In this document: positions 3,378 to 52,382 of the stretch, one piece after another | Layout of the letters: each line of letters begins with the position of its first letter | How positions within the stretch are numbered: position 1 is the stretch's first letter | Assembly: GCA_949358305.1 (NCBI GenBank) | Contig: OX442320.1 | Span: 560,501-624,500, forward strand | DNA: 64,000 nucleotides | Origin: Strigamia acuminata | Taxonomy: Eukaryota > Arthropoda > Chilopoda > Geophilomorpha > Linotaeniidae | Reading direction: 5' to 3' | The notes under the pieces: generated by a model | What the model was told of the DNA's origin: nothing | What the model saw: only the letters and a program-made list of their open reading frames with translations | Databases searched by the model: none | Position numbers and translations under genes: made by a program

Positions 3378-3382
3378 TCAAC
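3378..3382. repeat. Target-site duplication (left), thymidine-kinase element
   Basis: TCAAC, repeated at 9973-9977. A 5-bp duplication is within the usual range for BEL/Pao integrases. Confidence 0.9.
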
Positions 3383-3641
3383 TGTTTCTGGCAAGGTCGC
3401 AGGCGACAACCAGGCCAGAAGGAGGGGCGGCAATACTTGACTGCTGCTTGGCTAAAATTGATACACAGAAGTTGGCCAAAGACTTGAAGAAATGCAAACA
3501 CTGGACTTGAACTTGCTGCTTCACATGATGATCTGCCACTGGTGAGTTCAAGGAGGAGGAAGGAGGATTTTTCTACTCACTGCACATTGCTTTCTGGTTG
3601 TATAGAGAAATGAGACTTGGAGAGAAATAAAAAGCAACCAT

Positions 3642-3647
3642 TTTATT
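3642..3647 (-). promoter_or_regulatory. Candidate polyadenylation signal in the 3' LTR
   Basis: AATAAA on the minus strand, about 260 bp before the LTR end, so the element transcript could terminate here. The same hexamer lies at 8874-8879 in the 5' LTR. Confidence 0.45.
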
Positions 3648-4726
3648 CTCTAAATTCTTAACAAGACTACTACAATTGAATCACGAGGATTTTACAAAGA
3701 AGTCACACTTTAACAATAATAAGAAACAACAAGTGTAACTATCTCCACATTGTATAAGGACACTTGCACTTAAAGTTACAGAGGTCTCTAAGTGCTTGTA
3801 AAGAGAAATAAGTACTGCTGGCACAACAAAACTACCGTAGAAGTTAATAGTTGAAAACACATAAGCCTAACAGCAAGTATTTGACATTAAATGCAAAAGT
3901 ATACATTAACAACAGTCTCTAAACACAATGCTCATTGAGAACTAAATTATTCACTCTAAAACACACTGAACAACTCATAAAATAGAGAAAAGAATAAGTA
4001 AAGACATTTTAGACCAATGAGCTGGCAACTTTACAGTAAGTGCAGAAGTTAAGTTATAAATCAACACAGATAAATCTTAAACTTAACACTTTTACATTGC
4101 ATAATAATTAAGTGATTAATTATTAATCAGAACCCACAAAAACTCTTTGGGATTAAACATTTTCTCCTCTCTTTACAGATACAAGTAGACCACTCCCACA
4201 GTAATGGCCGACAATGTAAACAGAGATCACTTGCAGGAAGATAGAAAGGCTTGAAATTAGCTCACTAGACAGGCTACACACAATCTAAGTTAACAAAACG
4301 CTTAATTGGTTAGTAATATACAGAAAACAAACAGAAATTGATTGAAACAGCTTAAAACTGATAATAACATACATTTCTCATTCTAGTACCCTTTTGCTGT
4401 CTGAGAGCATCATTACACCTTGTCACTACATTGACAGTAGTGGACTGGAAACAGGAAAACACTTGGAAACATCAAAACATGCATAACACAGGTAAACAAG
4501 ATAGAAAATAAATTCTAAGTGGATAAATAACTAATGTAAAAACTCTTTTCTTCCCAGATTTATCCGGTCAGATCAACCAGTACTGAGAAATTCACTCAAA
4601 CTAACTCAAAGAAGACTTATATTCAAATAAGTGTCTAATTAAATTCCCAATCTAAGATAAATATTAAAAACCCTTTTTAATAATTCCAGATGACTAATTT
4701 TTAAGACGTTTAGCAGCTTTCCTTTA

Positions 4727-4740
4727 TGTTGCTAGCAACA
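4727..4740. repeat. Terminal 14-bp perfect palindrome of the LTR
   Basis: TGTTGCTAGCAACA reads the same on both strands and forms the extreme end of the LTR. The second copy is at 9959-9972. Its TGTTGC...GCAACA arms match the terminal hairpin of the LARD-like LTRs, which suggests a common integrase end-recognition signal. Confidence 0.7.
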
Positions 4741-4775
4741 TAGATTGCCGGCGAAAAGAAAGTGCGAACAACCCA
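4741..4775. other. 35-bp spacer between ORF stop and 3' LTR
   Basis: All that remains between the stop codon and the 3' LTR. Read on the minus strand the last bases are GCCGGCAATCTA, which is not a convincing polypurine tract. The plus-strand priming site of this element therefore remains unidentified. Its shortness shows that no pol genes lie downstream of the ORF. Confidence 0.7.
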
Positions 4776-7700
4776 TCATTTAGTTCGATTACTTCTGGTC
4801 TTTGATGATAATATTTGGGAGACCTCTTTCACCTTTTCGTATTCCACTCTGGGTGGCATGATTCTTTGACGGATCAAATTTGGTATCCACGGAGGTATTC
4901 TTCGGTTGACAATCATACAACTAAGTCGAATAATTCCGTTGATGATTTCCCTTTTCGTCTCTAGGGACTTCATGGGCTTTGAGAAACATACTCGACAGGT
5001 TGGTTTGTATTTGTCGATCCCTCCTATCATCTTGACTCTGGTTTCGTGCGAAATTCGTCTTGAAAATTCAGCTTTATCTCCGCAAAAATAACATTTTGCT
5101 TGTAGTTTCACAACAGACTCGGCTAGTGGAACTAACTTGGATATCTGATCAAATGGCTTCCTCTTGAAGTCGACGTCTAATGCGGCGACTATTACCTTTT
5201 TCTTTTGCTCAGCCATTTCATTTGAAAAAGTAAAAATGTCGGGAAAAAACTGTCCTTCGTCAATTCCGATTGTCTTCACTAATTTCGTTTTTTCCACAGC
5301 ATTGGTTAGGCTACTGGTAGCAATTGCTTCTCGTCGATGACCGTCGTGGGTCACGACTTCGGTTTTACTGTAACGATCGTCATTGGAGTGTTTAATTAGC
5401 AGGGACGACGTCTTCTCTTCCTTTTCTAAAAGCTTCAATAACTTGGTCGTTTTTCCCGCATACATTGGACCAATGATGAGATGAATTCCCTTTTGATTGG
5501 TTGACAAATCAATTTTCTTTTTCCAGAAATTCAGAATCACGTTTCCACTCCATCTCACGATTGCACACAATTTGGGTAAACTGGGCACTTGGTTTGTAAG
5601 TAATTCGACGTTCTTTCTCCCTGACTCTAACTGATTTCGCCCTCGTAATTCCGGCTTCATGTCCGAGCTTGGAGTTCTGTTGACCAATCCTCCATCCTTG
5701 AACGACTTTTTCGTTTTTTGGAGGGTGGTGTCCAGTTCCTCTTTCTCCAGACCACTGGAGAGGCTCGCGGCAAAACAAGAAGGTGTGACGTCTGTCTGTT
5801 TATTCACACCGGGTTCGCCATTCATGTTGGGCAGTGATTTCGGAATTAATTGGACTATTTTGTTTTCGTCATTTTCAGGTTGATTTGAGATCACTTCTTC
5901 TTTGGACTCGACCGCCATGCAAGAAATGTTGCACGCTGCCATGTTTTCTTCAAGCGGGTTGTTTGGTTTCAGTCGACCGTTTAGAATCCACCCAAAAATT
6001 GTCTCCATTAATCCCAACTCGTCGTTGATTTTTCGGCTTCCACCTTGACAAATCTTCCACCATGCGTTGCTTCCTAATAAGACGTCAATGTCTTCCGATT
6101 CTGACGGATGTATCTCAGCCATCTCAAGTCCGAGTGATTGGACTTGCTTTATGGCTTCTGCTCCAATTATCCCTTTGACTTTCGGGAGTGTGTCGGTTTC
6201 TAATGCAAGGATTGATGTCTTTTTTGTTCCGTGTCTTGATTGTAGTTCGAATCTAAAGACATCATGTGTCGTCGGAACTGGCTTTTTGTTGAGCAGACAC
6301 TGTGTCATCGTGTGTAGTGTCTCGATCTTTTGCATCCGGAATTTATTTACTAGTCTCTTCGTGACGTAGGAGCGATGGCTTCCTGGATCTAGTAATCCGC
6401 GGACGGGGTACATGTCTCCATTTTTCTTCACAAAAAGAGCAGTGAAGACCATCAGTTGAATCTCCACCGACTCGGTAAGCGATACATTAGTAGACACGTT
6501 TTCTTCTTTTGGTGTAATCGCTTTTTCTTTGTTGTTTTTGTTGCAGATCGATGTGTGATGTCTTCCACCACACAAGCGACAACAAAACTTCACGGTACAT
6601 TCTTTGGCTGTGTGGTTATATCTCAAGCAGTTGAAACAAAGTCGTTTCTTCTTCACTATTTCGATCCTCGCTGGTACATCGAGATCCGCATCACAATTTG
6701 CGTGTGCGTGATCACCATCACAATAAGCGCAGGCGGGTTTGCGGTTTGGATTTGACTTGGAATTCATACTCAATTTTCCATTCTCGGAAGTCACGAATGA
6801 GGACATGGTTCCAGTTGGTCTTTCTCTTGTTTCCTTTGAAGTTTTCTCAAATTTTTCTGACTTCTTCAGATGAGCGCGCTTAAGGAGAACGCTTTCTTCC
6901 GACAATTCAGCCAGTTGTATCTCGGTTGCTACGAAGTCCAGAAAAACGTTAACATCATCAACTTTTCCTTGATGCTTTCGGTAAAAACGTTGGGAGATCT
7001 CCGGTGGAAATTTTCTAAGTAGTTCTGGAATAAGGTACGTTCCAGTAGTGTCAACTGACACAGACAGTTGCGCCATGGTCCGGACAGCAGATGCCAATGA
7101 CGTGAATAGAGCTTTGAGTGGCTCGATTGGGTAGAGATCGAAAACGGGTTTCGACTCCCTAATCATCTTTGAAATAGCATTTCTCTGCGTGTTTTCAGAA
7201 CCGAATAGACTCTCCAATGTATTTTTCGCTAATGGGTAGGCGTCATCAGTTATTGGGTACGACTTGATTGCGGATTCTGCAGCCCCAGTGCAGCATGACC
7301 TCAGATATATAAGCTTTTCCACGTTCGAAAGCTCCGTGTTCTGATCAACTGCTGATTCGAATAAATTCGCAAAACCTCTATATTCAGTTGCATCGCCACT
7401 AAATTTGGCAATGTCGGTTTTCGGCAATCTCGTGTTTCTCCTAGATGAAGCGGACGTCTGGTTTAAACTGGAATTCTGTCCCGGATGGGAACCAAATTGC
7501 CCTGCCATTTTTCCAGACACTTTTGCTCTTTGTTTCAATAAATTTACTCTGGTTCTAATGTCTTCAATTCGTTGAAGCCCCGCTAAATAGTCCTCTCTTT
7601 TTGACTCGTCTTTAAGAGCTTTCAATTCGTCGGCGAGATCACTCAATTGCTGGTCAACCGTTATTTGCATGGCTTCCAGCTCTCCTCCGTCTAGAATGTT

Positions 7701-7793
7701 GACTGAAGATCCCAGCAGATCCTCGGCTCCTTGAGCCTTTGCTTTCCAAATGACCTCCTTTTCCTCGAGATCAGCAGCGGATAATGTAGCCAT
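4776..7793 (-). CDS. Gag-protease-thymidine kinase fusion polyprotein (1005 aa)
   Basis: The start is the ATG at 7793, in a strong context (A at -3, G at +4). The frame stays open three codons upstream, but only from a GTG. Residues 1-90 are charged and probably coiled-coil. From about 123 (motif LPKTDIAKFSGD) to about 300 is a BEL/Pao Gag domain of the DUF1759 type. Three zinc knuckles follow: C355/C358/H362/C367, C386/C389/H394/C399 and C405/C408/H412/C417. A DUF1758-type aspartic-protease region runs from about 447 to 606, with DPG at 469-471 where D-S/T-G is expected, and ends near FGWILNG. After a linker of about 160 residues, residues 768-937 form a TK1-type thymidine kinase. The last 68 residues are basic and unassigned. 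Polymerase, RNase H and integrase are absent. Gag would assemble particles with the RNA, and the kinase would phosphorylate thymidine. The domain calls are firm; whether the fusion is cleaved or active is inference. Confidence 0.93.
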   Translation of the reverse strand: MATLSAADLEEKEVIWKAKAQGAEDLLGSSVNILDGGELEAMQITVDQQLSDLADELKALKDESKREDYLAGLQRIEDIRTRVNLLKQRAKVSGKMAGQFGSHPGQNSSLNQTSASSRRNTRLPKTDIAKFSGDATEYRGFANLFESAVDQNTELSNVEKLIYLRSCCTGAAESAIKSYPITDDAYPLAKNTLESLFGSENTQRNAISKMIRESKPVFDLYPIEPLKALFTSLASAVRTMAQLSVSVDTTGTYLIPELLRKFPPEISQRFYRKHQGKVDDVNVFLDFVATEIQLAELSEESVLLKRAHLKKSEKFEKTSKETRERPTGTMSSFVTSENGKLSMNSKSNPNRKPACAYCDGDHAHANCDADLDVPARIEIVKKKRLCFNCLRYNHTAKECTVKFCCRLCGGRHHTSICNKNNKEKAITPKEENVSTNVSLTESVEIQLMVFTALFVKKNGDMYPVRGLLDPGSHRSYVTKRLVNKFRMQKIETLHTMTQCLLNKKPVPTTHDVFRFELQSRHGTKKTSILALETDTLPKVKGIIGAEAIKQVQSLGLEMAEIHPSESEDIDVLLGSNAWWKICQGGSRKINDELGLMETIFGWILNGRLKPNNPLEENMAACNISCMAVESKEEVISNQPENDENKIVQLIPKSLPNMNGEPGVNKQTDVTPSCFAASLSSGLEKEELDTTLQKTKKSFKDGGLVNRTPSSDMKPELRGRNQLESGRKNVELLTNQVPSLPKLCAIVRWSGNVILNFWKKKIDLSTNQKGIHLIIGPMYAGKTTKLLKLLEKEEKTSSLLIKHSNDDRYSKTEVVTHDGHRREAIATSSLTNAVEKTKLVKTIGIDEGQFFPDIFTFSNEMAEQKKKVIVAALDVDFKRKPFDQISKLVPLAESVVKLQAKCYFCGDKAEFSRRISHETRVKMIGGIDKYKPTCRVCFSKPMKSLETKREIINGIIRLSCMIVNRRIPPWIPNLIRQRIMPPRVEYEKVKEVSQILSSKTRSNRTK
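4983..5492 (-). other. TK1-family thymidine kinase domain (residues 768-937 of the fusion)
   Basis: ATP:thymidine phosphotransferase fold of the TK1 class. Visible landmarks are the P-loop GPMYAGKT at residues 775-782, a THDG segment at about 815-818, and IGIDEGQFFPD at 842-852 with E846 at the catalytic-base position. VIVAALD and LVPLAESVVKL follow. Zinc cysteines are C901, C904, C933 and C936, with IGGIDKY (923-929) in the lasso loop that binds the thymine ring. The 29-residue spacing between the two CxxC pairs equals that of human TK1. There is no stop, frameshift or lost signature residue, and the coding is intronless. The eukaryotic C-terminal KEN-box regulatory tail is not seen. The source could be a host TK1 mRNA or a large DNA virus; the sequence alone does not decide. 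Confidence 0.93.
6361..6450 (-). other. Protease active-site region with DPG instead of D-S/T-G
   Basis: The segment GLLDPGSHRSYV (catalytic Asp at residue 469) aligns with the active-site loop of BEL/Pao retropepsins, which normally reads DSG or DTG. The codon is CCA (Pro) where a serine TCA would differ by one base. The flanks, and the downstream GSNAWW and FGWILNG motifs of the same domain, are intact. Activity may be lost or altered. Confidence 0.75.
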
Positions 7794-8075
7794 AATCCTC
7801 ACCGAGAAATGAAGAATTCAAAGATCAGTTCAGGATTCAAACTCAACTTAACTGACTAAATTGGTTAACAAGAAATTGTCTAATTCTTTTACACTCTAGG
7901 ATTTACTGAACACACAAAAACAGGATGGATATCCACAAACTGTTAACAGGATTGAAACACACGGGATGTTAACAGGATTGGCAAATTAACCCCCAAAATT
8001 CAATAATTAAAGGTAATTGACAATTCTCTTATTTTCACAATTGAGTTTCTGACTAGATACTCGTTTTAAATTGGG

Positions 8076-8098
8076 ATACCAACACTAAAGCTTGGTAT
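8076..8098 (-). promoter_or_regulatory. Candidate leader RNA hairpin
   Basis: Perfect 7-bp inverted repeat (ATACCAA and TTGGTAT) with a 9-nt loop in the leader, between primer-binding site and Gag start. Possible packaging structure; seen by eye only. Confidence 0.35.
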
Positions 8099-8591
8099 TA
8101 TTCACTAATTCACTGGATATTCTCTAAATTCCACAAACTGGAATCGAGAATTTATTCAAACTGTTAAGACTTAAACTTCTTCTCCCCCCAACTACACCAG
8201 TTTCTAATCAAAAACTCTTTTTGAAATAATTACAGCAGCAAATTCGGATATTATTCTATTTAAATAATAATTCTTAATAATTATTTCTTCAAATCTTCTT
8301 GTAGGATGTACATTGCGTTGTGTTTGGAATTGATTGTCGTGCAGGATCGCTCGTACTCTCGAAGCCTTGCTTGATCCAAGTTGAAAAACATCTTGACCAT
8401 CTTGACAATTTGAGAATCCAACTTGAAAAACCCACTTTTTTGCCTGTGAAAGGCTGACGAGAGCATACACTTCACTGTAGTGGCACAGCTTCAATGGCAC
8501 TTTACACATAAAAGCTTTGCACAGCTTGAGAACAAAACCCACTGATGAATTTTGCAGCACACATGAAGGTCCACTGAGATAACTGGAAGAA

Positions 8592-8611
8592 ATCCTTGGT
8601 TCACGGTACCA
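8592..8611 (-). promoter_or_regulatory. Candidate primer-binding site, tRNA-His-like
   Basis: Three nucleotides inside the 5' LTR the minus strand reads TGGTACCGTGAACCAAGGAT, starting with the obligatory TGG. Its complement resembles the 3' end of tRNA-His (AATCCTGGTCACGGCACCA) with two single-base insertions and one substitution. The primer assignment is tentative; the position is right. Confidence 0.55.
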
Positions 8612-8614
8612 AAT

Positions 8615-9972
8615 TGTTTCTGGCAAGGTCGCAGGCGACAACCAGGCCAGAAGGAGGGGCGGCAATACTTGACTGCTGCTTGGCTAAAATTGATACACAG
8701 AAGTTGGCCAAAGACTTGAAGAAATGCAAACACTGGACTTGAACTTGCTGCTTCACATGATGATCTGCCACTGGTGAGTTCAAGGAGGAGGAAGGAGGAT
8801 TTTTCTACTCACTGCACATTGCTTTCTGGTTGTATAGAGAAATGAGACTTGGAGAGAAATAAAAAGCAACCATTTTATTCTCTAAATTCTTAACAAGACT
8901 ACTACAATTGAATCACGAGGATTTTACAAAGAAGTCACACTTTAACAATAATAAGAAACAACAAGTGTAACTATCTCCACATTGTATAAGGACACTTGCA
9001 CTTAAAGTTACAGAGGTCTCTAAGTGCTTGTAAAGAGAAATAAGTACTGCTGGCACAACAAAACTACCGTAGAAGTTAATAGTTGAAAACACATAAGCCT
9101 AACAGCAAGTATTTGACATTAAATGCAAAAGTATACATTAACAACAGTCTCTAAACACAATGCTCATTGAGAACTAAATTATTCACTCTAAAACACACTG
9201 AACAACTCATAAAATAGAGAAAAGAATAAGTAAAGACATTTTAGACCAATGAGCTGGCAACTTTACAGTAAGTGCAGAAGTTAAGTTATAAATCAACACA
9301 GATAAATCTTAAACTTAACACTTTTACATTGCATAATAATTAAGTGATTAATTATTAATCAGAACCCACAAAAACTCTTTGGGATTAAACATTTTCTCCT
9401 CTCTTTACAGATACAAGTAGACCACTCCCACAGTAATGGCCGACAATGTAAACAGAGATCACTTGCAGGAAGATAGAAAGGCTTGAAATTAGCTCACTAG
9501 ACAGGCTACACACAATCTAAGTTAACAAAACGCTTAATTGGTTAGTAATATACAGAAAACAAACAGAAATTGATTGAAACAGCTTAAAACTGATAATAAC
9601 ATACATTTCTCATTCTAGTACCCTTTTGCTGTCTGAGAGCATCATTACACCTTGTCACTACATTGACAGTAGTGGACTGGAAACAGGAAAACACTTGGAA
9701 ACATCAAAACATGCATAACACAGGTAAACAAGATAGAAAATAAATTCTAAGTGGATAAATAACTAATGTAAAAACTCTTTTCTTCCCAGATTTATCCGGT
9801 CAGATCAACCAGTACTGAGAAATTCACTCAAACTAACTCAAAGAAGACTTATATTCAAATAAGTGTCTAATTAAATTCCCAATCTAAGATAAATATTAAA
9901 AACCCTTTTTAATAATTCCAGATGACTAATTTTTAAGACGTTTAGCAGCTTTCCTTTATGTTGCTAGCAACA
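8615..9972 (-). repeat. 5' LTR of the thymidine-kinase element
   Basis: 1358 bp, apparently identical to 3383-4740. It is the upstream LTR on the minus strand, so it should hold the promoter and transcription start. A candidate AATAAA lies at 8874-8879 (minus). No convincing TATA box was assigned. Confidence 0.95.
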
Positions 9973-9977
9973 TCAAC
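9973..9977. repeat. Target-site duplication (right), thymidine-kinase element
   Basis: TCAAC, partner of 3378-3382. Confidence 0.9.
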
Positions 9978-31407: not shown

Positions 31408-33156
31408 TGTTGCCAGCAAGCAGTGATTGCTGCAAGAACCGGCAACTCACGCACCTCGTAATAAACATTCGAGCGATCAAATCTTCGCACAGCACTTTTA
31501 ACTACTCGACTCGATTGAAACCATTCTGACATCTGATAACGCATCTCATGTTTTCTGACTTGGCCCTCATTGTCCTCTCCATGTCGACCGAAACTCGAGA
31601 ACCTGGCTTTTGCTCTAAACATGACGGTTGGCGGATATTCGGGCTCGAATATCAATATCGTCTTTCGCAAATCAAAGATGGCGTAGATTCGAATCTCGCG
31701 CTCGTGTGAAAACGAAAAGAAACACTCGTTCTTATTTGCGAACAAAAATAAAACGATGTTTAATCGTTCAAATCAAAACTATAACTACTTGTACAATCGC
31801 TTAGCTCGTGTCACAGCCTTTTATTACAATAGAAAAAGACACGAGCGCATTATTGACACAATAAAGGGATAATATCTCAACCAACACTGTCTCCTACAGG
31901 CTTCCGTACTTCAAGATCACAACAGCCGTTGAGACCTAAGACTTAAACTTAAAACCTAATCTAACATTGAAGATACACTGCCAATAAACACATCTGAACT
32001 CAAAGAATATTTAAAGACAGTAACATAAATTAGAGTGAGGTGTAAACCTCAAAAAAAACCCGCAATTAACATTCTCAACGAACACAGAGGAGAATCTATA
32101 AAACCCGAAAATGCGCAACTTTGCCGCGAGGCGGCATTGTATGCAATCGCCGTAAAATTAAGCCTCAAGAAAACCTCGGCCACACACACACGATTACGCT
32201 TTTAATTACGAATAAAAACTCAATAACAATTCTAATTGTTCGATGTGTTCCTGCAATTATTCATTTGGGTGCCACGGAACTATATTCTCATCACCCGAAC
32301 TAAATTTGAAGATATCCGAGTGTTTCCCAAAACCCGAACCTGAACGAAATGACAAAAACTCTGTGAAATCACGTGACCTCTATTTTATCCCGTGAATCTA
32401 AATCGGAACCAAAATCAACGAATAAATAAGCAACCAAATAATTCTAAATCTCAATAAACTCTCATAACAAGAACCGAACACGAAAGAATCTTTTTACTAA
32501 ATCAACATGAATCTCGGTCGATAACGAGGCTCGTTGCACCAACTGTCTCCTAATGGCGGATCCAACCGACCAACGCTCCTTGGTGACCAACGGAACTTCT
32601 CCTCTGCCCCACGCCGACTCATCGGATCTAATTCTGCGGTAAACCACATCCAAAGCTATTTATTTAATCGACTAAAAAGTTTCTGACCTAATATATTTAA
32701 ATCTACAGCTTCAAAACAACATCTTTCCGAGTGCGCTCCGACCAGACCAAACCGCTCGATAATCAACAACGACTTCGCTTTTCGCTTTGAAACCCATCCT
32801 CGCCGTTATCGCCTTCAATCAGCGACCCAATGCCTGCCTGTACCGTGTCAGATAAGTTCTCGAAAACTATTCAAACTAACCGGAACCGAAATTAAAAACC
32901 TTGACTTTTCCTTTGTAGATAAACCCGATGCCCGAACTTAACACAAGATGGCGCGACACGCTCACCTCTCAATTCTAACGTTGCGAACTCTTCGAGAAAT
33001 TGAGACTTTTAAAGAAACGAAATGACCGAAACGATTCAGCTAACCCCGACAACTCACAAGGTAAACATTCCACGAATGGTAACTCGAATCATGCAAATGA
33101 ACCAAAGTTTCTCTCCCTTTTCTGAATATTATTTTGTTGCGTATCTGCTCGCAACA
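31408..33156 (-). repeat. 3' LTR of LARD-like copy 1
   Basis: 1749 bp. The minus-strand start is a 22-nt hairpin (33135-33156: TGTTGCG, 8-nt loop, CGCAACA). A candidate AATAAA lies at 31820-31825 on the minus strand. Short ORFs in it recur in all four LTR copies only because the LTRs are nearly identical. Confidence 0.95.
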
Positions 33157-33167
33157 TCGCTCCCACC
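33157..33167 (-). promoter_or_regulatory. Candidate polypurine tract
   Basis: On the minus strand GGTGGGAGCGA lies directly before the 3' LTR, with 9 of 11 purines. This is where plus-strand priming should start. The same sequence is at 45369-45379 in copy 2. Confidence 0.45.
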
Positions 33168-35305
33168 AAAAAAGAAAGACGATAGCGGGGGGAAATTTAT
33201 ACCTAATAAATTCACATCTTCTCTTTACTCGGACAGCCCATCTAACCTCGCTAATTACCACAAGTGACGTTGTGGAGACGCTTAGTATGAACAACCGTCT
33301 CTCTTATCTGTACCCCGCAACCCATCCCCTCTCTCAGGCTCCCATCTCGGACTTATCTCTTCCTTCCAAGAGACCGAGTGTAAGGACCTAAGAGGGAGGG
33401 GAATAGGAAATACAGACACTCTCTATTATTTATGCAAACAAAACTATTTTCGATTCACAGCTTTTAATCGAAGGACGCCAATGAGATTCGGGAATTCTCT
33501 ATCTTCTTCCAGAGAAGGAACCTTTTCAAAAAATGATGCTCTCGTGGAGAAGGAGAAACCACCTAACTTCCATAATCTCGATTGTCTACGCCTTTTGCTA
33601 ATCTCAACCGGTAGCTTCATAATGTCCCGTATCGAGCGAAGTAACATTGCATCAATTTAAATAGATCTCGCTCCTCTTGAGAAAATCTGTTCACCCTTTT
33701 AAATTCCAGACTCTAACTCAATTCAACGGACGTCGTAACCTTACGACTCATGACTCTCGACACGGCTCAAAATTCACTTTACGTGCCGATGTTCTTTGAC
33801 TATTTTATTTTCTTTTTCGGAGACAACGACTTCCGGACCACTTAAAATTCCTTTTACAAACCGGAATCGTCTTCTGTTAACTCTCGAATGTCTTACTAAA
33901 TTCTCTTAAATTCTTAAAAGAGGAAGTCAAGATTGCCGAACCCGTAGACTCAGAAACGGCGGACTTCTCTTTTTTGCTAATCCACTTCACTTGTCTTAGG
34001 CAACAACCTTTACTATCAGCTCTGTAAATCTCTAATATTTTCCTATCTTAATTCTGCCTTTGAAAACTCCATCAACTTTGTTTAAAAGAAAACCCTGTTA
34101 AGACCAATTACACCACATGCTGCTATTTTCTAATGGAGGGGTTAGTTTCCTGTTGTTATCCAGTCAAGGACATTCGATATTTAACTGAATCCACCATAAC
34201 TTGGGCTTATTCTAAGCACCCTGTATTTTATTTCCCGTGTTAAATGTTTGAGTTAAGGGTGAGGGAAGCCATGAAGACTCTTCTATCTGTTATTTTTTCC
34301 ACAATATAAAATCTTAGGATTAGGAAAACAGGAAATTAATCAAAAAAGTTTAGTGACCGTTCCTCTTCGGCGACCGACGGCGTGCACTCCGCCGGTGGCC
34401 GGCAGGACTTTCCCGGACACATCTTGTCGTTTCCAATCCCAATTTTATTTTATATTCATATAATTCCCTCCCGACTCAAAAAAAAACAAGAAAGGAAGCT
34501 CTATTGCTAATCGGGTCCCAGTGACCAGGACACTTCGTGTAATCGCGAATTCGACTAAGGGACTAAGGGATTCGAGCAACCCATTGGTGTTTGCCATCTT
34601 GCATGTCGAAAAATCGATCATTCAAACGAAGAACCATTAGAATCACAAAGAGAGAAGGGGTGTAGAGGGACTTTATATCTGATTGTGTGCATGAAAGCAC
34701 TGTCCTTGTCACATTAGATAAGCTGGTGTGAACAGATCCTGTTATGTCCCCGCATTCGTTTTAGCTCTAAACAACTGCACCTATTTGGAAAGTTTTCCAT
34801 TTTCGTCTAATCCCGAGTGGAAAAGCGATTCATTCATCTAAATGGATTGAAACTCCTATTATATAGTTTGACTGTTATGAAGGTTTAAGAGGTCAAGGTT
34901 TTCTATTCTATTTGCTTCTGTATGTATTTTCTAACCCTAAAAGAACAACGTAACCCATATGTGAGCACCGCAATGCGAAGGACTTGTTTGCTAACTTCCA
35001 AACAGAAAGTCTTACAAAGCCATTACTTCACAAATTGAATCGTTTTTTCTGAAAATGTCCAGAACTCTCAAGATTCCCAGTGTTCAAAGGCGATTTCCGT
35101 TGGCTGCCTCTGAAGTAGAGCTTTCCGGAGGAAAAAGGAAAAAGGAAGTACTTATAACAGGAAAACTAATCTATCTCTTCTAGAGGAGAACTTATTGAAA
35201 AACTTTCTCGTTCTGTTATTCTTATGTTAGATGTAAAGGATTTTTCTATTCAGTCAGGATTTAAGTATGGTATGGATTGATATTTAGGAAGCGACAGCAT
35301 GTATT

Positions 35306-35366
35306 TTGGCACGCTCGGCGCCAAGGAGTAGATCCACTTTTCGGGAGACTTCCCGAAACAAAGTGG
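35306..35366 (-). promoter_or_regulatory. Pair of adjacent hairpins in the LARD-like interior
   Basis: First stem TTGGC/GCCAA (35306-35324). Second stem CCACTTT/AAAGTGG enclosing CGGGA/TCCCG (35334-35366). They are only 9 nt apart, in otherwise AT-rich non-coding DNA. They could be RNA structures used for packaging in trans. Copy 2 has them at 47518-47578. Confidence 0.4.
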
Positions 35367-36115
35367 CGAACTTTTCTAATACTGAAACTGTCAGAAAAAA
35401 AAACAACTAAAGGTTAGATAAGGAGGAAGACTTTATTTTCTAAGATGCACCCAGCAGCAATGAATATCTCAACCGATCGGCTCATGTGGTTTTGACTAAT
35501 GCCATAAATACTAACACCGACTGCGATATTTGACCAACACCTGAATTCGAATGTAATAGAAATTATAAATTCTTACGTCCAAACCTAATCTGCCCCCGAT
35601 TTATTAAACTTGTTCTAACTGTAATATCCTGGAGAATAAGTATTTCTACTGTGAAGATCTTCTATGCTTTCAAAGAAATCGATCAGGAAACTTCCGAAAC
35701 TTGAAATCACTAAATTCTCGAGAGGAATTGTCTGTATTTTCTTTAATAAAGAGCTGTATATAAGGACTGGAAGAATAAACTAAACCATTTTCTATTTTCC
35801 TAAGTGACGAGAAAATCGGGTTCTTTTCTGTTGGTTCTGGGGTCTTTAATTCTCAATAAACTGGGATTCGCTCCTTTTCTCTACTGAACCTTTTTACTGT
35901 CACCTTGTTTCTTCGGCTGACTTTACACGGCTCTTCCCAAATTAACAACCTCTTCGGACCAACTTGCACCGGACTAATTCTCTAATTGATTGCTCTAAAA
36001 AATCCTTTCAGTTTAATTTTTATGATCCCTTTTTATTCTATTAGCTGAGAGCTAATGATTGTTGCCTTTTCCTACTCTACAAGGAGGAAGATGGATCTCT
36101 ATCTTTAGGTTTGTT

Positions 36116-36494
36116 GGACCACTGTTAACCAAATAAAACCTTTTCTCTAACCTAATACTTGGGCTTGATGGACCACTGTTAACCAACTAAAGCCTTTTTC
36201 TATTTCTGTCTTCTGTATAGGGGGGAATTTTCTTCTTTAAAACTTTATTATGCAACCTCGAGACTTTCCCGAGTTTCTCCCCTATCATTTTTCAATTCTT
36301 GAGGAGTGAATTTAGCGCGAAAGTCTCACGCGTCAATTACCCTCTCCTCATTATGCTAGTGAAACTCGACGGACCAACTGTTAACCGACTGAACTTCTTC
36401 TCACTTCTTCTAGTGAAGCTCGACGGACCAACTGTTAACCGACTGGACTTCTAAATTGCAAGCTTTCTAAATTAGACTGACCGTGCTGTTAACA
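36116..36494. repeat. Cluster of GGACCA(A)CTGTTAACC motifs
   Basis: Four clear copies at 36116-36130, 36170-36184, 36371-36386 and 36425-36440, plus a weaker one near 36479 (CTGTTAACAG). The copies form two local duplications. The core GTTAAC is palindromic and also recurs in the leader of the thymidine-kinase element. Function unknown. Confidence 0.55.
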
Positions 36495-38060
36495 GCTCAA
36501 AAGAGAAAGTTTCTTGCTACTAAAGGAATCTCCAACAACCAATGTAATATTTTCTTTTTGTAGCTCGTTGCTTCGAAAATAAAGACAAAGAATCACTGAA
36601 AATTCCTGACGAACAACTTCTATTTCTAAACGGCCCTTTGCCAAAAAGGAAAATTAGTGTAAAGGTTTTACGTTCGTCTTTCTTATTCTGTACAATAAGA
36701 TTTATCTCTCTTTGGTTCGATTTATTGCGAATCAACACCAACGGAACTTATTGCGCTCTTTTTCTGCCTGAGGAAGTATCAATTTCGATCCAAGTGACCA
36801 ATTGGGACCTCCCGCTAAGGCGATGCTGCATTTACAGACAATGACAAACTCTCTCGTTCCTTCATTAATCTGAAATTATTCTTGCGCGTGGCGAATCATT
36901 TTCTTCAACTAGCTTTCGACCCCCTTCAAAGCGCTTGGATACTTTAATAAAAGTAAAACCTCTTGAAGTCGACCATAGTTTTCTATTGCCACGGATGATG
37001 AAACCCAAAACTCCTTCTTTTATTCGGCGTCCCGAAAACTGAATAGAGAATCGAAATTCCACGCGTCATCTCTTATTTCTTGCTAGCTAAATTTCCTCAA
37101 AATCCAGTGATTTATTCAACGTATAAACTTAGCTTGCACTACAACTTCTTATGCTATTCACGAGTTGGACCCTTAACCTGGGGTGTGCTAATTCTCTTTT
37201 CTGGTCCTTTAAAAGGCTGTCCAGCTTCTTATTTCTGCATAATCCCAAATGGATACCAACCGCGTTCAAACTTAAGAGACTCGAAATTTTCTTTTCTATT
37301 AAAACTCACATCAATCTCAAAATTGTCGATTGGGGGAACCCACGTCTTTATCTATAAAGGGAATTTATCTTTCTGCCCCTGTTCTATTTATCGTGGACAT
37401 GTTCATACTTAAATGCAACTTTCATAAACGTCGGAAATTAATTTCTAAACTCGTAATTGGAACTCAAATTTATCTCAAAGCTTTTTACCTTTAATTCATC
37501 AACGTGACAAAAAAAAGGACTGACTAGAAACTTCAATCTCCTAAGAAAATCTAGTTCACAATAAAAAAAACCGACTAATTATGCATAAGCAATTGAAAAT
37601 CAATCCCCCCAAAAGGACACACTTCGAACTTTGAATGTGATTCGCAAAACTCAACACTTAAAAGTTAAGATCGTAACGGAAATACTCCATATCGAACGGC
37701 GCTCACGAAATTGTCAGGTCGGAAACAACTCGAAAATATGCTAGTCTGAAAATCATACACACTAAAGTAAACTTTACAAGGCGTTTTTTCAATGACTCGT
37801 TTCATTAGGCAAGAGTGTCTTACGACCCTCGTTGAGCCCTGAAACAGAGCACGCCCCACAAATTAAGACTACCAATATACCGCACACCAAATCGAATCCG
37901 ACATAACAACCTCGCAATACACATACACTAGCCGAACGAGACAAAACCCCCAAAAACAATCCTAAAACAACTCTAAGCTAACTTAAAACAAATAAACAAT
38001 TCGAAAAAAAAGAAAACACAAGACTCTTCTCTTCTAGTGTCATTGCGTTGTGTATAACTT

Positions 38061-38636
38061 CTAGGCTCGCCCGAGATTCAGGGTTCCGATCGTTCCTCCT
38101 TCTTTGTACGCCGACTGCTTAATTTCCGCAACCTTCTTCATTCCGGCCCCGCGACGCCATTGTCCCTTCCGACGGCTCGACCGACGCTTTCGGATCAACC
38201 GACCTCCCGCGACGTATTTTTCCCAAATCTCTTTCGACTTGATTACCGCCCGACGAGAGACCGCTTGCCGCTTCGCCCTCAACCCATCAGTGCGGGCACT
38301 TCTCTGTTGACGTCGGCTGCCTGCTTTTGCGACCCTGGGACTTCTATTCTCCTCTGGTTGCTGGCTCTCTCCTCGTCTACCCGACGAATCCCGGTCATCC
38401 ACGGCACCACAAAAAGGGCTATGTTGCCAGCAAGCAGTGATTGCTGCAAGAACCGGCAACTCACGCACCTCGTAATAAACATTCGAGCGATCAAATCTTC
38501 GCACAGCACTTTTAACTACTCGACTCGATTGAAACCATTCTGACATCTGATAACGCATCTCATGTTTTCTGACTTGGCCCTCATTGTCCTCTCCATGTCG
38601 ACCGAAACTCGAGAACCTGGCTTTTGCTCTAAACAT
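38061..38636 (-). CDS. Hypothetical basic ORF spanning LTR, primer site and interior (191 aa)
   Basis: Starts at the ATG at 38636 inside the 5' LTR (U5 side, downstream of the candidate AATAAA). It runs through the LTR end and the primer-binding site and stops 361 bp into the interior. The C-terminal half is very rich in Arg and Lys. I recognise no domain. It could be a relic of the Gag start, or chance. The frame stays open only because of a 4-bp insertion in the primer-binding site; copy 2, without it, is frameshifted at this point. Upstream of 38636 the frame is open to 38759 but without an ATG. Confidence 0.3.
   Translation of the reverse strand: MFRAKARFSSFGRHGEDNEGQVRKHEMRYQMSEWFQSSRVVKSAVRRFDRSNVYYEVRELPVLAAITACWQHSPFCGAVDDRDSSGRRGESQQPEENRSPRVAKAGSRRQQRSARTDGLRAKRQAVSRRAVIKSKEIWEKYVAGGRLIRKRRSSRRKGQWRRGAGMKKVAEIKQSAYKEGGTIGTLNLGRA
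38385..38409 (-). promoter_or_regulatory. Primer-binding site of copy 1, tRNA-His type with a 4-bp insertion
   Basis: Begins TGGTGCCGTG on the minus strand, 12 nt inside the LTR. It differs from the corresponding site in copy 2 by an extra TCCA (plus strand) and one T-to-C change, so complementarity to tRNA-His is broken in the middle. The insertion makes the acceptor-strand equivalent four bases too long for any normal tRNA, so this is damage or a copying error rather than a switch of primer. Confidence 0.75.
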
Positions 38637-40170
38637 GACGGTTGGCGGATATTCGGGCTCGAATATCAATATCGTCTTTCGCAAATCAAAGATGGCGTAG
38701 ATTCGAATCTCGCGCTCGTGTGAAAACGAAAAGAAACACTCGTTCTTATTTGCGAACAAAAATAAAACGATGTTTAATCGTTCAAATCAAAACTATAACT
38801 ACTTGTACAATCGCTTAGCTCGTGTCACAGCCTTTTATTACAATAGAAAAAGACACGAGCGCATTATTGACACAATAAAGGGATAATATCTCAACCAACA
38901 CTGTCTCCTACAGGCTTCCGTACTTCAAGATCACAACAGCCGTTGAGACCTAAGACTTAAACTTAAAACCTAATCTAACATTGAAGATACACTGCCAATA
39001 AACACATCTGAACTCAAAGAATATTTAAAGACAGTAACATAAATTAGAGTGAGGTGTAAACCTCAAAAAAAACCCGCAATTAACATTCTCAACGAACACA
39101 GAGGAGAATCTATAAAACCCGAAAATGCGCAACTTTGCCGCGAGGCGGCATTGTATGCAATCGCCGTAAAATTAAGCCTCAAGAAAACCTCGGCCACACA
39201 CACACGATTACGCTTTTAATTACGAATAAAAACTCAATAACAATTCTAATTGTTCGATGTGTTCCTGCAATTATTCATTTGGGTGCCACGGAACTATATT
39301 CTCATCACCCGAACTAAATTTGAAGATATCCGAGTGTTTCCCAAAACCCGAACCTGAACGAAATGACAAAAACTCTGTGAAATCACGTGACCTCTATTTT
39401 ATCCCGTGAATCTAAATCGGAACCAAAATCAACGAATAAATAAGCAACCAAATAATTCTAAATCTCAATAAACTCTCATAACAAGAACCGAACACGAAAG
39501 AATCTTTTTACTAAATCAACATGAATCTCGGTCGATAACGAGGCTCGTTGCACCAACTGTCTCCTAATGGCGGATCCAACCGACCAACGCTCCTTGGTGA
39601 CCAACGGAACTTCTCCTCTGCCCCACGCCGACTCATCGGATCTAATTCTGCGGTAAACCACATCCAAAGCTATTTATTTAATCGACTAAAAAGTTTCTGA
39701 CCTAATATATTTAAATCTACAGCTTCAAAACAACATCTTTCCGAGTGCGCTCCGACCAGACCAAACCGCTCGATAATCAACAACGACTTCGCTTTTCGCT
39801 TTGAAACCCATCCTCGCCGTTATCGCCTTCAATCAGCGACCCAATGCCTGCCTGTACCGTGTCAGATAAGTTCTCGAAAACTATTCAAACTAACCGGAAC
39901 CGAAATTAAAAACCTTGACTTTTCCTTTGTAGATAAACCCGATGCCCGAACTTAACACAAGATGGCGCGACACGCTCACCTCTCAATTCTAACGTTGCGA
40001 ACTCTTCGAGAAATTGAGACTTTTAAAGAAACGAAATGACCGAAACGATTCAGCTAACCCCGACAACTCACAAGGTAAACATTCCACGAATGGTAACTCG
40101 AATCATGCAAATGAACCAAAGTTTCTCTCCCTTTTTTGAATATTATTTTGTTGCGTATCTGCTCGCAACA
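38422..40170 (-). repeat. 5' LTR of LARD-like copy 1
   Basis: 1749 bp; identical to 31408-33156 except the T at 40136. Candidate AATAAA at 38834-38839 (minus). Terminal hairpin at 40149-40170. Confidence 0.95.
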
Positions 40171-43615: not shown

Positions 43616-43619
43616 GCTT
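43616..43619. repeat. Target-site duplication (left), LARD-like copy 2
   Basis: GCTT, repeated at 52379-52382. Confidence 0.88.
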
Positions 43620-45368
43620 TGTTGCCAGCAAGCAGTGATTGCTGCAAGAACCGGCAACTCACGCACCTCGTAATAAACATTCGAGCGATCAAATCTTCGC
43701 ACAGCACTTTTAACTACTCGACTCGATTGAAACCATTCTGACATCTGATAACGCATCTCATGTTTTCTGACTTGGCCCTCATTGTCCTCTCCATGTCGAC
43801 CGAAACTCGAGAACCTGGCTTTTGCTCTAAACATGACGGTTGGCGGATATTCGGGCTCGAATATCAATATCGTCTTTCGCAAATCAAAGATGGCGTAGAT
43901 TCGAATCTCGCGCTCGTGTGAAAACGAAAAGAAACACTCGTTCTTATTTGCGAACAAAAATAAAACGATGTTTAATCGTTCAAATCAAAACTATAACTAC
44001 TTGTACAATCGCTTAGCTCGTGTCACAGCCTTTTATTACAATAGAAAAAGACACGAGCGCATTATTGACACAATAAAGGGATAATATCTCAACCAACACT
44101 GTCTCCTACAGGCTTCCGTACTTCAAGATCACAACAGCCGTTGAGACCTAAGACTTAAACTTAAAACCTAATCTAACATTGAAGATACACTGCCAATAAA
44201 CACATCTGAACTCAAAGAATATTTAAAGACAGTAACATAAATTAGAGTGAGGTGTAAACCTCAAAAAAAACCCGCAATTAACATTCTCAACGAACACAGA
44301 GGAGAATCTATAAAACCCGAAAATGCGCAACTTTGCCGCGAGGCGGCATTGTATGCAATCGCCGTAAAATTAAGCCTCAAGAAAACCTCGGCCACACACA
44401 CACGATTACGCTTTTAATTACGAATAAAAACTCAATAACAATTCTAATTGTTCGATGTGTTCCTGCAATTATTCATTTGGGTGCCACGGAACTATATTCT
44501 CATCACCCGAACTAAATTTGAAGATATCCGAGTGTTTCCCAAAACCCGAACCTGAACGAAATGACAAAAACTCTGTGAAATCACGTGACCTCTATTTTAT
44601 CCCGTGAATCTAAATCGGAACCAAAATCAACGAATAAATAAGCAACCAAATAATTCTAAATCTCAATAAACTCTCATAACAAGAACCGAACACGAAAGAA
44701 TCTTTTTACTAAATCAACATGAATCTCGGTCGATAACGAGGCTCGTTGCACCAACTGTCTCCTAATGGCGGATCCAACCGACCAACGCTCCTTGGTGACC
44801 AACGGAACTTCTCCTCTGCCCCACGCCGACTCATCGGATCTAATTCTGCGGTAAACCACATCCAAAGCTATTTATTTAATCGACTAAAAAGTTTCTGACC
44901 TAATATATTTAAATCTACAGCTTCAAAACAACATCTTTCCGAGTGCGCTCCGACCAGACCAAACCGCTCGATAATCAACAACGACTTCGCTTTTCGCTTT
45001 GAAACCCATCCTCGCCGTTATCGCCTTCAATCAGCGACCCAATGCCTGCCTGTACCGTGTCAGATAAGTTCTCGAAAACTATTCAAACTAACCGGAACCG
45101 AAATTAAAAACCTTGACTTTTCCTTTGTAGATAAACCCGATGCCCGAACTTAACACAAGATGGCGCGACACGCTCACCTCTCAATTCTAACGTTGCGAAC
45201 TCTTCGAGAAATTGAGACTTTTAAAGAAACGAAATGACCGAAACGATTCAGCTAACCCCGACAACTCACAAGGTAAACATTCCACGAATGGTAACTCGAA
45301 TCATGCAAATGAACCAAAGTTTCTCTCCCTTTTCTGAATATTATTTTGTTGCGTATCTGCTCGCAACA
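43620..45368 (-). repeat. 3' LTR of LARD-like copy 2
   Basis: 1749 bp, matching 50630-52378. Terminal hairpin at 45347-45368. Confidence 0.95.
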
Positions 45369-48300
45369 TCGCTCCCACCAAAAAAGAAAGACGATAGCGG
45401 GGGGAAATTTATACCTAATAAATTCACATCTTCTCTTTACTCGGACAGCCCATCTAACCTCGCTAATTACCACAAGTGACGTTGTGGAGACGCTTAGTAT
45501 GAACAACCGTCTCTCTTATCTGTACCCCGCAACCCATCCCCTCTCTCAGGCTCCCATCTCGGACTTATCTCTTCCTTCCAAGAGACCGAGTGTAAGGACC
45601 TAAGAGGGAGGGGAATAGGAAATACAGACACTCTCTATTATTTATGCAAACAAAACTATTTTCGATTCACAGCTTTTAATCGAAGGACGCCAATGAGATT
45701 CGGGAATTCTCTATCTTCTTCCAGAGAAGGAACCTTTTCAAAAAATGATGCTCTCGTGGAGAAGGAGAAACCACCTAACTTCCATAATCTCGATTGTCTA
45801 CGCCTTTTGCTAATCTCAACCGGTAGCTTCATAATGTCCCGTATCGAGCGAAGTAACATTGCATCAATTTAAATAGATCTCGCTCCTCTTGAGAAAATCT
45901 GTTCACCCTTTTAAATTCCAGACTCTAACTCAATTCAACGGACGTCGTAACCTTACGACTCATGACTCTCGACACGGCTCAAAATTCACTTTACGTGCCG
46001 ATGTTCTTTGACTATTTTATTTTCTTTTTCGGAGACAACGACTTCCGGACCACTTAAAATTCCTTTTACAAACCGGAATCGTCTTCTGTTAACTCTCGAA
46101 TGTCTTACTAAATTCTCTTAAATTCTTAAAAGAGGAAGTCAAGATTGCCGAACCCGTAGACTCAGAAACGGCGGACTTCTCTTTTTTGCTAATCCACTTC
46201 ACTTGTCTTAGGCAACAACCTTTACTATCAGCTCTGTAAATCTCTAATATTTTCCTATCTTAATTCTGCCTTTGAAAACTCCATCAACTTTGTTTAAAAG
46301 AAAACCCTGTTAAGACCAATTACACCACATGCTGCTATTTTCTAATGGAGGGGTTAGTTTCCTGTTGTTATCCAGTCAAGGACATTCGATATTTAACTGA
46401 ATCCACCATAACTTGGGCTTATTCTAAGCACCCTGTATTTTATTTCCCGTGTTAAATGTTTGAGTTAAGGGTGAGGGAAGCCATGAAGACTCTTCTATCT
46501 GTTATTTTTTCCACAATATAAAATCTTAGGATTAGGAAAACAGGAAATTAATCAAAAAAGTTTAGTGACCGTTCCTCTTCGGCGACCGACGGCGTGCACT
46601 CCGCCGGTGGCCGGCAGGACTTTCCCGGACACATCTTGTCGTTTCCAATCCCAATTTTATTTTATATTCATATAATTCCCTCCCGACTCAAAAAAAAACA
46701 AGAAAGGAAGCTCTATTGCTAATCGGGTCCCAGTGACCAGGACACTTCGTGTAATCGCGAATTCGACTAAGGGACTAAGGGATTCGAGCAACCCATTGGT
46801 GTTTGCCATCTTGCATGTCGAAAAATCGATCATTCAAACGAAGAACCATTAGAATCACAAAGAGAGAAGGGGTGTAGAGGGACTTTATATCTGATTGTGT
46901 GCATGAAAGCACTGTCCTTGTCACATTAGATAAGCTGGTGTGAACAGATCCTGTTATGTCCCCGCATTCGTTTTAGCTCTAAACAACTGCACCTATTTGG
47001 AAAGTTTTCCATTTTCGTCTAATCCCGAGTGGAAAAGCGATTCATTCATCTAAATGGATTGAAACTCCTATTATATAGTTTGACTGTTATGAAGGTTTAA
47101 GAGGTCAAGGTTTTCTATTCTATTTGCTTCTGTATGTATTTTCTAACCCTAAAAGAACAACGTAACCCATATGTGAGCACCGCAATGCGAAGGACTTGTT
47201 TGCTAACTTCCAAACAGAAAGTCTTACAAAGCCATTACTTCACAAATTGAATCGTTTTTTCTGAAAATGTCCAGAACTCTCAAGATTCCCAGTGTTCAAA
47301 GGCGATTTCCGTTGGCTGCCTCTGAAGTAGAGCTTTCCGGAGGAAAAAGGAAAAAGGAAGTACTTATAACAGGAAAACTAATCTATCTCTTCTAGAGGAG
47401 AACTTATTGAAAAACTTTCTCGTTCTGTTATTCTTATGTTAGATGTAAAGGATTTTTCTATTCAGTCAGGATTTAAGTATGGTATGGATTGATATTTAGG
47501 AAGCGACAGCATGTATTTTGGCACGCTCGGCGCCAAGGAGTAGATCCACTTTTCGGGAGACTTCCCGAAACAAAGTGGCGAACTTTTCTAATACTGAAAC
47601 TGTCAGAAAAAAAAACAACTAAAGGTTAGATAAGGAGGAAGACTTTATTTTCTAAGATGCACCCAGCAGCAATGAATATCTCAACCGATCGGCTCATGTG
47701 GTTTTGACTAATGCCATAAATACTAACACCGACTGCGATATTTGACCAACACCTGAATTCGAATGTAATAGAAATTATAAATTCTTACGTCCAAACCTAA
47801 TCTGCCCCCGATTTATTAAACTTGTTCTAACTGTAATATCCTGGAGAATAAGTATTTCTACTGTGAAGATCTTCTATGCTTTCAAAGAAATCGATCAGGA
47901 AACTTCCGAAACTTGAAATCACTAAATTCTCGAGAGGAATTGTCTGTATTTTCTTTAATAAAGAGCTGTATATAAGGACTGGAAGAATAAACTAAACCAT
48001 TTTCTATTTTCCTAAGTGACGAGAAAATCGGGTTCTTTTCTGTTGGTTCTGGGGTCTTTAATTCTCAATAAACTGGGATTCGCTCCTTTTCTCTACTGAA
48101 CCTTTTTACTGTCACCTTGTTTCTTCGGCTGACTTTACACGGCTCTTCCCAAATTAACAACCTCTTCGGACCAACTTGCACCGGACTAATTCTCTAATTG
48201 ATTGCTCTAAAAAATCCTTTCAGTTTAATTTTTATGATCCCTTTTTATTCTATTAGCTGAGAGCTAATGATTGTTGCCTTTTCCTACTCTACAAGGAGGA

Positions 48301-50490: not shown

Positions 50491-50844
50491 TCAACCCATC
50501 AGTGCGGGCACTTCTCTGTTGACGTCGGCTGCCTGCTTTTGCGACCCTGGGACTTCTATTCTCCTCTGGTTGCTGGCTCTCTCCTCGTCTACCCGACGAA
50601 TCCTGGTCACGGCACCACAAAAAGGGCTATGTTGCCAGCAAGCAGTGATTGCTGCAAGAACCGGCAACTCACGCACCTCGTAATAAACATTCGAGCGATC
50701 AAATCTTCGCACAGCACTTTTAACTACTCGACTCGATTGAAACCATTCTGACATCTGATAACGCATCTCATGTTTTCTGACTTGGCCCTCATTGTCCTCT
50801 CCATGTCGACCGAAACTCGAGAACCTGGCTTTTGCTCTAAACAT
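50491..50844 (-). CDS. Hypothetical LTR-derived ORF, frameshifted relative to copy 1 (117 aa)
   Basis: Equivalent to the ORF at 38061-38636, starting at the same LTR ATG. Without the 4-bp insertion it leaves the frame used in copy 1 at the primer-binding site and stops at 50491. The downstream Arg-rich frame remains open separately. The conflict between copies argues that this is not a conserved gene. Confidence 0.2.
   Translation of the reverse strand: MFRAKARFSSFGRHGEDNEGQVRKHEMRYQMSEWFQSSRVVKSAVRRFDRSNVYYEVRELPVLAAITACWQHSPFCGAVTRIRRVDEERASNQRRIEVPGSQKQAADVNREVPALMG
50597..50617 (-). promoter_or_regulatory. Primer-binding site of copy 2, tRNA-His
   Basis: The minus strand reads TGGTGCCGTGACCAGGAT, 12 nt inside the 5' LTR. 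The complement fits a tRNA 3' end: T-loop/T-stem GAATCCTGG, acceptor strand TCACGGC, discriminator A, then CCA. This agrees with animal cytosolic tRNA-His (acceptor 5' strand GCCGTGA) as I know it. It fixes the element orientation. Confidence 0.85.
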
Positions 50845-52378: not shown

Positions 52379-52382
52379 GCTT
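52379..52382. repeat. Target-site duplication (right), LARD-like copy 2
   Basis: GCTT, partner of 43616-43619. Confidence 0.88.

Follow-up and report, generated by a model that had tools for sequence, protein, structure and literature searches.

We analyzed a 64,000-nucleotide stretch of the genome of the centipede Strigamia acuminata (assembly GCA_949358305.1, contig OX442320.1; C9:560501-624500 in our numbering of contigs), which we call the window. Positions 3383 to 9972 of the window hold, on the reverse strand, a long terminal repeat (LTR) element that encodes a Gag protein, a protease-like region (PR), and a type II thymidine kinase (TK) in one open reading frame (ORF). The 5' LTR (8615 to 9972) and the 3' LTR (3383 to 4740, with AATAAA at LTR position 1094) are 100% identical over 1358 bp and have the ends TGT...ACA. 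The element is flanked by a target duplication, TCAAC, at 3378 to 3382 and again at 9973 to 9977. It lies inside an array of a 140-bp satellite: if the flanks are joined, the resulting 65 bases match the window at 146 places with at most 3 mismatches, so the target was ordinary satellite.

The ORF (4776 to 7793, reverse strand) has 1005 codons and runs from 7793 to 4779, with its stop codon at 4776-4778, which is 35 bases short of the 3' LTR. All of the coding sequence of the element is in this frame. At the base composition of the ORF, the log10 probability that a frame this long would be open by chance is about -27. In the sense direction, the order is the 5' LTR, a sequence that resembles a primer-binding site 3 bases further on (TGGTACCGTGAACC, 8598 to 8611), a leader, the ORF and its stop codon, 35 bases, and the 3' LTR; the distance from the 5' LTR to the ATG is 821 bases in all. 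Directly before the 3' LTR is TTTCTTTTCGCCGGCAATCTA (4741 to 4764, reverse strand). Scanning the window for Rfam families and tRNAs gave no match, and a hairpin at the start of the LTR is no more stable than in shuffled sequences.

The order of domains in the protein is Gag, PR, linker, TK, and tail, all on the reverse strand. The Gag core (residues 131-272; 6978 to 7403) matches DUF1759 in Pfam with E = 2e-17. It is followed by a zinc-knuckle region (residues 355-417; 6543 to 6731), whose cysteine and histidine columns are invariant in a six-row alignment and whose match to zf-CCHC in Pfam is weak (E = 0.14). The protease-like region (residues 430-630; 5904 to 6506) contains the motif LLDPGS. 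When the ORF is compared with a profile made from six BEL/Pao polyproteins, residues 37-624 align (254 bits) and no other part does; the homology ends with the protease region, ahead of the part that is reverse transcriptase (RT) in the relatives. A structural model of the protease region is weak, with a mean predicted local distance difference test (pLDDT) score of 60; it has 723 fold matches at E ≤ 10, led by retropepsins and Ddi1, and none of them reaches 0.001. In a protein search, Gag finds its best match in a sequence of the octocoral Xenia, which, with 27% identity, is too distant to name a phylum.

We did not find RT, RNase H, or integrase in the ORF or elsewhere in the element, either with Pfam or with the BEL/Pao profile. 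The linker (residues 631-764; 5502 to 5903) and the C-terminal tail (residues 941-1005; 4779 to 4973) have no profile match to remnants of pol, and the tail has no Pfam match. A 12-residue match in the tail (E = 1.2) was not accepted as a pol remnant. Because pol is absent, we classify the element, from its sequence, as BEL/Pao-derived and non-autonomous, and not as a full member of BEL/Pao. Like BEL/Pao retrotransposons, it has a Gag of the DUF1759 type with zinc knuckles, a region homologous to their protease region, LTRs with TG...CA ends, and target duplications of 4-5 bp. It differs from them in having a TK in place of RT, RNase H, and integrase, and in lacking a purine tract before the 3' LTR.

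The TK domain occupies residues 765-940 (4974 to 5501, reverse strand). The Pfam family for TK (PF00265) matches residues 770-937 with E = 2.1e-54. A structural model of the kinase is good (mean pLDDT 81.5, with 143 of its 258 residues scoring at least 90), and its match to human TK1 (1xbt chain D) has E = 4.2e-20 and a template modeling score of 0.95 of the target. The window copy has the Walker A lysine (K781), the catalytic glutamate (E846), and the zinc cysteines (C901, C904, C933, and C936). We also aligned the kinase to human TK1 and checked the positions that we take to be important. G26, K32, S33, D58, R60, and D97 of human TK1 correspond to G, K, T, D, R, and D; E98, F101, L124, F128, F133, and C153 correspond to E, F, L, F, F, and C; and C156, T163, Y181, C185, and C188 correspond to C, S, Y, C, and C. 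Thus, the kinase shares the fold, the Walker A motif, the DEGQFF loop, and the four zinc cysteines with the type II thymidine kinases (human, 1xbt; vaccinia, 2j87). Unlike them, it is fused to Gag and PR, reaches no more than 52% identity with any of 106 aligned TKs from the databases, and has no KEN triplet, which is absent from the entire ORF and is present in three of the four animal TKs that we checked. Codon usage does not break between Gag-PR and the TK (P = 0.37).

An earlier note on this DNA, which was made from the sequence alone, had described much of this: a single frame of 1005 codons between identical LTRs with a target duplication, ending 35 bp before the 3' LTR and encoding a BEL/Pao Gag, zinc knuckles, a protease region, and then a TK1-type kinase, with RT, RNase H, and integrase missing. 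Our results agree with it on each of these points, with the protease region recognized by its homology to BEL/Pao proteins.

The host assembly has 237,517,015 bases in 157 contigs. When we searched it with the whole ORF, all 46 of the matches that were scored (from 1370 candidates) covered residues 1-1005 without a stop codon. Of these, 34 are at 99-100% identity; the other 12, at 96-97%, form a subfamily that we call A2 (in one of them, L051, the ORF has 1001 codons). When we searched with the TK domain, we scored 150 of 203 candidates and sorted them by eye into five classes, A to E, based on identity and open frame; all of the copy counts are lower bounds. Class A, which includes the window copy, has at least 54 TK matches (91-100% identity), of which three are partial, one with an internal TGA. 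Class B has at least 42 matches (56-57%), and 37 of them have open frames of 995-1002. Two partial matches at 55%, in frames of 280, fall outside of the classes.

The recurrence of the Gag-TK junction bears on whether it is real. The window is in a satellite-rich region, where a misassembly or a chance junction might be feared. However, every one of the 46 scored copies, which are spread over many contigs, has the same junction, as does the diverged family B, so we reject this explanation as far as sequence can decide and regard it as barely credible. The earlier note's claim that a TK had been captured in a Gag-protease-TK architecture is borne out by these many copies from two diverged families, and the junction is not limited to a single assembled locus.

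Family A moved recently because, among the nine LTR pairs that we compared (the window copy, L019-L025, and the A2 copy L051), eight are identical and the other (L025) differs by one base. Each of these nine copies lies between short repeats that are 4-5 bp long. The flanks of L019 (C1) and L024 (C21) are alike, which leaves eight distinct sites, as read by eye. Since the copies crowd into a few stretches (such as C8 at 6.8-7.5 Mb and C13 at 7.9-10.3 Mb), some of them may have spread by duplication of the satellite rather than by transposition. In family B, the LTRs of L048 have 1 mismatch in 959 aligned positions, and those of L050 and L049 have none in 968 and 718. Recent copies without a pol of their own point to mobilization by a helper, as expected for a non-autonomous element. 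Some Gag-TK copies are in tandem, about 5.2-5.3 kb apart (L047 at C13:9876670 and 9881877; L053 at C5:15444946 and 15450247), and look as if two elements share one middle LTR. In L047, the boundaries of the LTRs could not be set cleanly, and the 1060 positions that align contain 4 mismatches.

This mobile behavior also speaks to another idea, which is that the Gag-TK chimera is a domesticated gene that works for the host. The conservation of the ORF and the purifying selection described below would fit with this. But near-identical copies, at least 46 in number, occupy different sites and have LTRs and target duplications, which is what one expects of a mobile element, and we consider domestication to be very unlikely.

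We fetched four loci of family B (L047-L050). Their ORFs all have 995 or 1002 codons and the same start. Full alignments of L047 and L049 show Gag, PR, linker, TK, and tail in the order found in A; for L050 we read the TK, and for L048 we saw the TK by its motif. The proteins of A and B (L018 versus L047) are 53.5% identical overall, with 56% identity in Gag, 62% in PR, 56% in the TK, 28% in the linker, which is the least conserved part, and 49% in the tail, which is partly common to both families (over 41 aligned codons). Synonymous sites are saturated between A and B, and we detected no DNA similarity between the LTR and leader of A and the B locus L050. Nevertheless, both families keep a TGG box, TGGTACCGTGA[AC]CCAAGGATTT, after the 5' LTR, and both keep TTTCTTTTCG[CG]CGGCAATCT[AC] before the 3' LTR, where the sequences are nearly identical. 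Because two families that are this diverged share the order of domains and the motifs at their ends, the Gag-PR-TK architecture is old, and the unusual motif before the 3' LTR is probably functional.

Where did the kinase come from? In a first tree of TKs, with 107 rows, the element could not be placed and had a branch of length 3.31. We then considered a tree of 55 rows, comprising 46 rows that were chosen from the others in the first tree and nine rows from this genome; its sampling of outside TKs is partial. The nine rows form one clade (support 96/90); within this tree, the TKs of A and B form one clade (99/94) and those of C, D, and E form another (99/88). Because the kinases of A and B form a single clade beside the free-standing TKs of the same genome, the simplest reading of the tree is a single capture from this host's TK lineage, and the captured TK would have been kept for a long time. 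The donor could have been a standard gene of the host, or a TK that another repeat already carried. We considered a viral donor as well, but a scan of IMG/VR for TKs gave 17 loci (45 candidate stretches) with at most 39% identity, versus 52% for TKs from the databases, so we rejected it; these 17 loci are not included in the trees.

The TKs of classes C, D, and E are in free-standing frames within repeated stretches that span most of the 10 kb fetched. Class E (L043-L046; for example, C1:25869663-25870163 and C8:13192149-13192649) comprises 34 or more TK frames, each 190 codons long, which are 51% identical to the A-type TK and occur at many places in the genome, inside repeats longer than 5 kb. 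Class C (L036-L040; for example, on C130, C17, C12, C22, and C34) has at least 13 TK frames (54-55%) and is nearest to class E (79%). Many of the class C frames are on small contigs, beside low-complexity sequence or runs of N, and these stretches look like repeated contig-end regions. Two long frames of class C (1118 and 1999) cross stretches of N and are not real frames. Class D (L041, L042, and L055; for example, C5:11273327-11273836) has at least five TK frames (51-52%), which are 221 or 239 codons long and lie in stretches that are duplicated; it is a further TK lineage of this genome. Among ten frames that neighbor the TKs of C, D, and E, we found no convincing Pfam family of mobile elements or genes, and there was a single low-complexity hit, to a family of repetitive proteins.

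If the element is non-autonomous, then RT and integrase must come from elsewhere, and the genome contains candidates. A search with the BEL/Pao polyprotein P0003 had 4163 candidates, and the 28 that were scored all span nearly the entire query, from Gag to integrase. These matches are 31-32% identical to the query, in frames of 1740-1802, and 25 of the 28 have no internal stop. Such full-length BEL/Pao frames could be the source of RT and integrase. A relic of a BEL/Pao pol also adjoins one older A-type copy (L052). The earlier note had envisioned an autonomous relative with a full pol and the same LTR: the full-length polyproteins do exist, but no shared LTR was matched (the LTRs of these frames were not read).

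In resting cells, the supply of nucleotides limits reverse transcription, and some retroelements answer this with a dUTPase. We think it probable that this is a non-autonomous, BEL/Pao-derived lineage whose Gag-fused TK raises deoxythymidine triphosphate (dTTP) for reverse transcription. The Gag-PR-TK polyprotein would assemble particles around the element's RNA, and BEL/Pao elements in the same genome would supply RT and integrase in trans. Since the TK is fused to Gag in a 1:1 ratio, each particle would bring the kinase along. By converting thymidine to deoxythymidine monophosphate and deoxyuridine to deoxyuridine monophosphate, the kinase would raise dTTP and lower the share of deoxyuridine triphosphate at the site of cDNA synthesis. 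The earlier note had already suggested a gain in dTTP for making cDNA. Because it lacks the KEN triplet of some animal TK1s, it may be stable outside of S phase. More tentatively, we speculate that an old lineage swapped its polymerase genes for a salvage enzyme and may act as partner to autonomous BEL/Pao elements rather than as a pure parasite, in a two-part system in which one RNA would bring RT and integrase and the other would bring the nucleotide supply.

This proposal depends on the kinase being useful to the element. Alternatively, the cDNA of a host TK might have been transduced by template switching, as retroviruses do when they capture genes, and then carried without any use to the element. 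Retroelements are known to take up host genes: endogenous retroviruses of crocodilians carry nectin3 or KIT-ligand between their LTRs, in several copies (PMC4299795). Those elements resemble ours in having a host coding sequence between LTRs in several copies; they differ in the genes and in the class of retroelement, and ours has a TK that is common to two diverged families and fused to Gag-PR.

Codon comparisons address this alternative. We entered 21 loci and obtained the TK from 20 (L053 gave none); four pairs of entries are the same places (L018/L026, L023/L031, L024/L033, and L025/L034), and the haplotype pairs are not independent. Between the window copy and L051 (A2), the 171 codons of the TK differ by 14 synonymous and 7 nonsynonymous changes, for a ratio of nonsynonymous to synonymous rates (dN/dS) of about 0.14 (P = 1.3e-5 against neutrality). 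Across four A haplotypes, dN/dS is 0.14-0.20 versus L051 and 0.20-0.28 versus L052. The codons of A-type TKs thus appear to be under purifying selection, and this, together with the architecture shared by A and B, makes a useless passenger unlikely. Also, the TK is in frame in both families, which have no detectable similarity in LTR or leader, and it is as conserved between them as Gag is.

Several observations weigh against a useful kinase or against the proposal as a whole. First, L051 and L052 differ by 4 synonymous and 7 nonsynonymous changes in the TK, which shows no constraint, and pairs within B show little or none (2/3, 6/4, 6/5, 1/3, 1/4, and 5/3 synonymous/nonsynonymous changes). 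Second, the mismatches between A and A2 are clustered: of the 78 between the window copy and L051, 36 are in one 330-bp bin (element positions of about 4290-4620 in the sense direction), where the linker ends and the TK begins. This tract suggests recombination with another lineage, so the test for selection rests on few independent events. Third, of 55 columns that are conserved in at least 95% of the 106 TKs, A keeps 47 and B keeps 44, and each of the 106 keeps more than either of them. (An estimate based on neutral decay, with P = 1.7e-8, presumes a donor of ordinary divergence, and we do not use it as main evidence.) Fourth, the TK of B carries D873N and D817T, so that a conserved aspartate is lost. 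The B copy L050 (C5:14004501-14014500), whose LTRs are identical, reads IGIDEEQFF instead of IGIDEGQFF, which is a G-to-E change beside the catalytic glutamate; four further B matches have the same score as L050 in the TK-domain search. Fifth, the protease motif reads DPG in place of DSG or DTG; seven aligned relatives have DSG, DDG, DSG, DSG, DTG, DSG, and DGG. Sixth, the 3' LTR of the window element is not preceded by a purine tract, and no helper is matched by LTR or primer site. Finally, the enzyme activity, the transcript, and the particle are all inferred from sequence. The altered sites in B and the weak constraint within B are what a passenger would show; given the evidence from A and from the A-B comparison, we still rate a passenger as unlikely.

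Type II thymidine kinases are oligomers, and the fold might instead serve the assembly of the Gag shell or the sensing of nucleotides, without catalysis. The TK is fused to every Gag molecule, and the fold and the zinc cysteines are conserved despite the changes at conserved positions, which would suit a structural use. However, the Walker A lysine and the DEGQFF loop are retained in A, as are the positions of the thymidine site that we checked, and a purely structural part would need none of these. We consider this use to be quite unlikely and prefer a kinase that provides dTTP.

Gag-only LTR elements that are non-autonomous include TR-GAG and BARE-2, and Bs1 of maize carries a host gene. Like these, the TK element keeps Gag, has lost pol, and needs a helper; unlike them, it adds an enzyme that shows signs of selection. 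The nearest known logic for a Gag-tethered TK is the dUTPase of some retroelements. Such dUTPases are found in the bdelloid elements Juno, Vesta, and TelKA, where they are located between PR and RT, and also in betaretroviruses and non-primate lentiviruses (PMC5408684, PMC4531489). These cases are alike in that an enzyme of nucleotide metabolism is part of a retroelement polyprotein, and unlike in that they keep RT and integrase and that their enzyme is a dUTPase and not a TK.

Thus, retroelements with enzymes of nucleotide metabolism and retroelements with captured host genes are already known. A pol-less Gag-PR-TK lineage with a selected kinase is undescribed, as far as our searches reach. 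A literature search, which was limited in its reach, found no paper that pairs a thymidine kinase with an LTR retrotransposon. A protein search found eight relatives among 7993 candidates that were scored, and none of the eight has both Gag and TK domains. The whole protein has no relatives in IMG/VR or in the GTDB genomes, and within IMG/VR, Gag-PR has no relatives and the pattern at the LTR start has no matches. If our proposal is correct, then a selected Gag-fused TK would be a second and independent answer to the limit on nucleotides, in an element without a polymerase, and it would show that a non-autonomous element, instead of only decaying, can go on evolving over long periods around an enzyme that it acquired. 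The idea is directly testable, since a single genome offers many intact copies as well as two families and possible helpers.

The same satellite array in the window also holds two other elements of 8.76 kb, at 31408-40170 and 43619-52379, which are 99.93% alike. They have LTRs of 1749 bp and 4-bp flanks that differ (GTCT and GCTT), and we recognized no coding sequence in them. In the ends of their LTRs and in a TGGTGCCGTG box past the 5' LTR, they are similar to the TK element. At about 745-2016 of the window, the satellite is interrupted by a 1.3-kb insert with GATG flanks and LTR-like ends that are similar to those of the 8.76-kb elements; this is probably a solo LTR.

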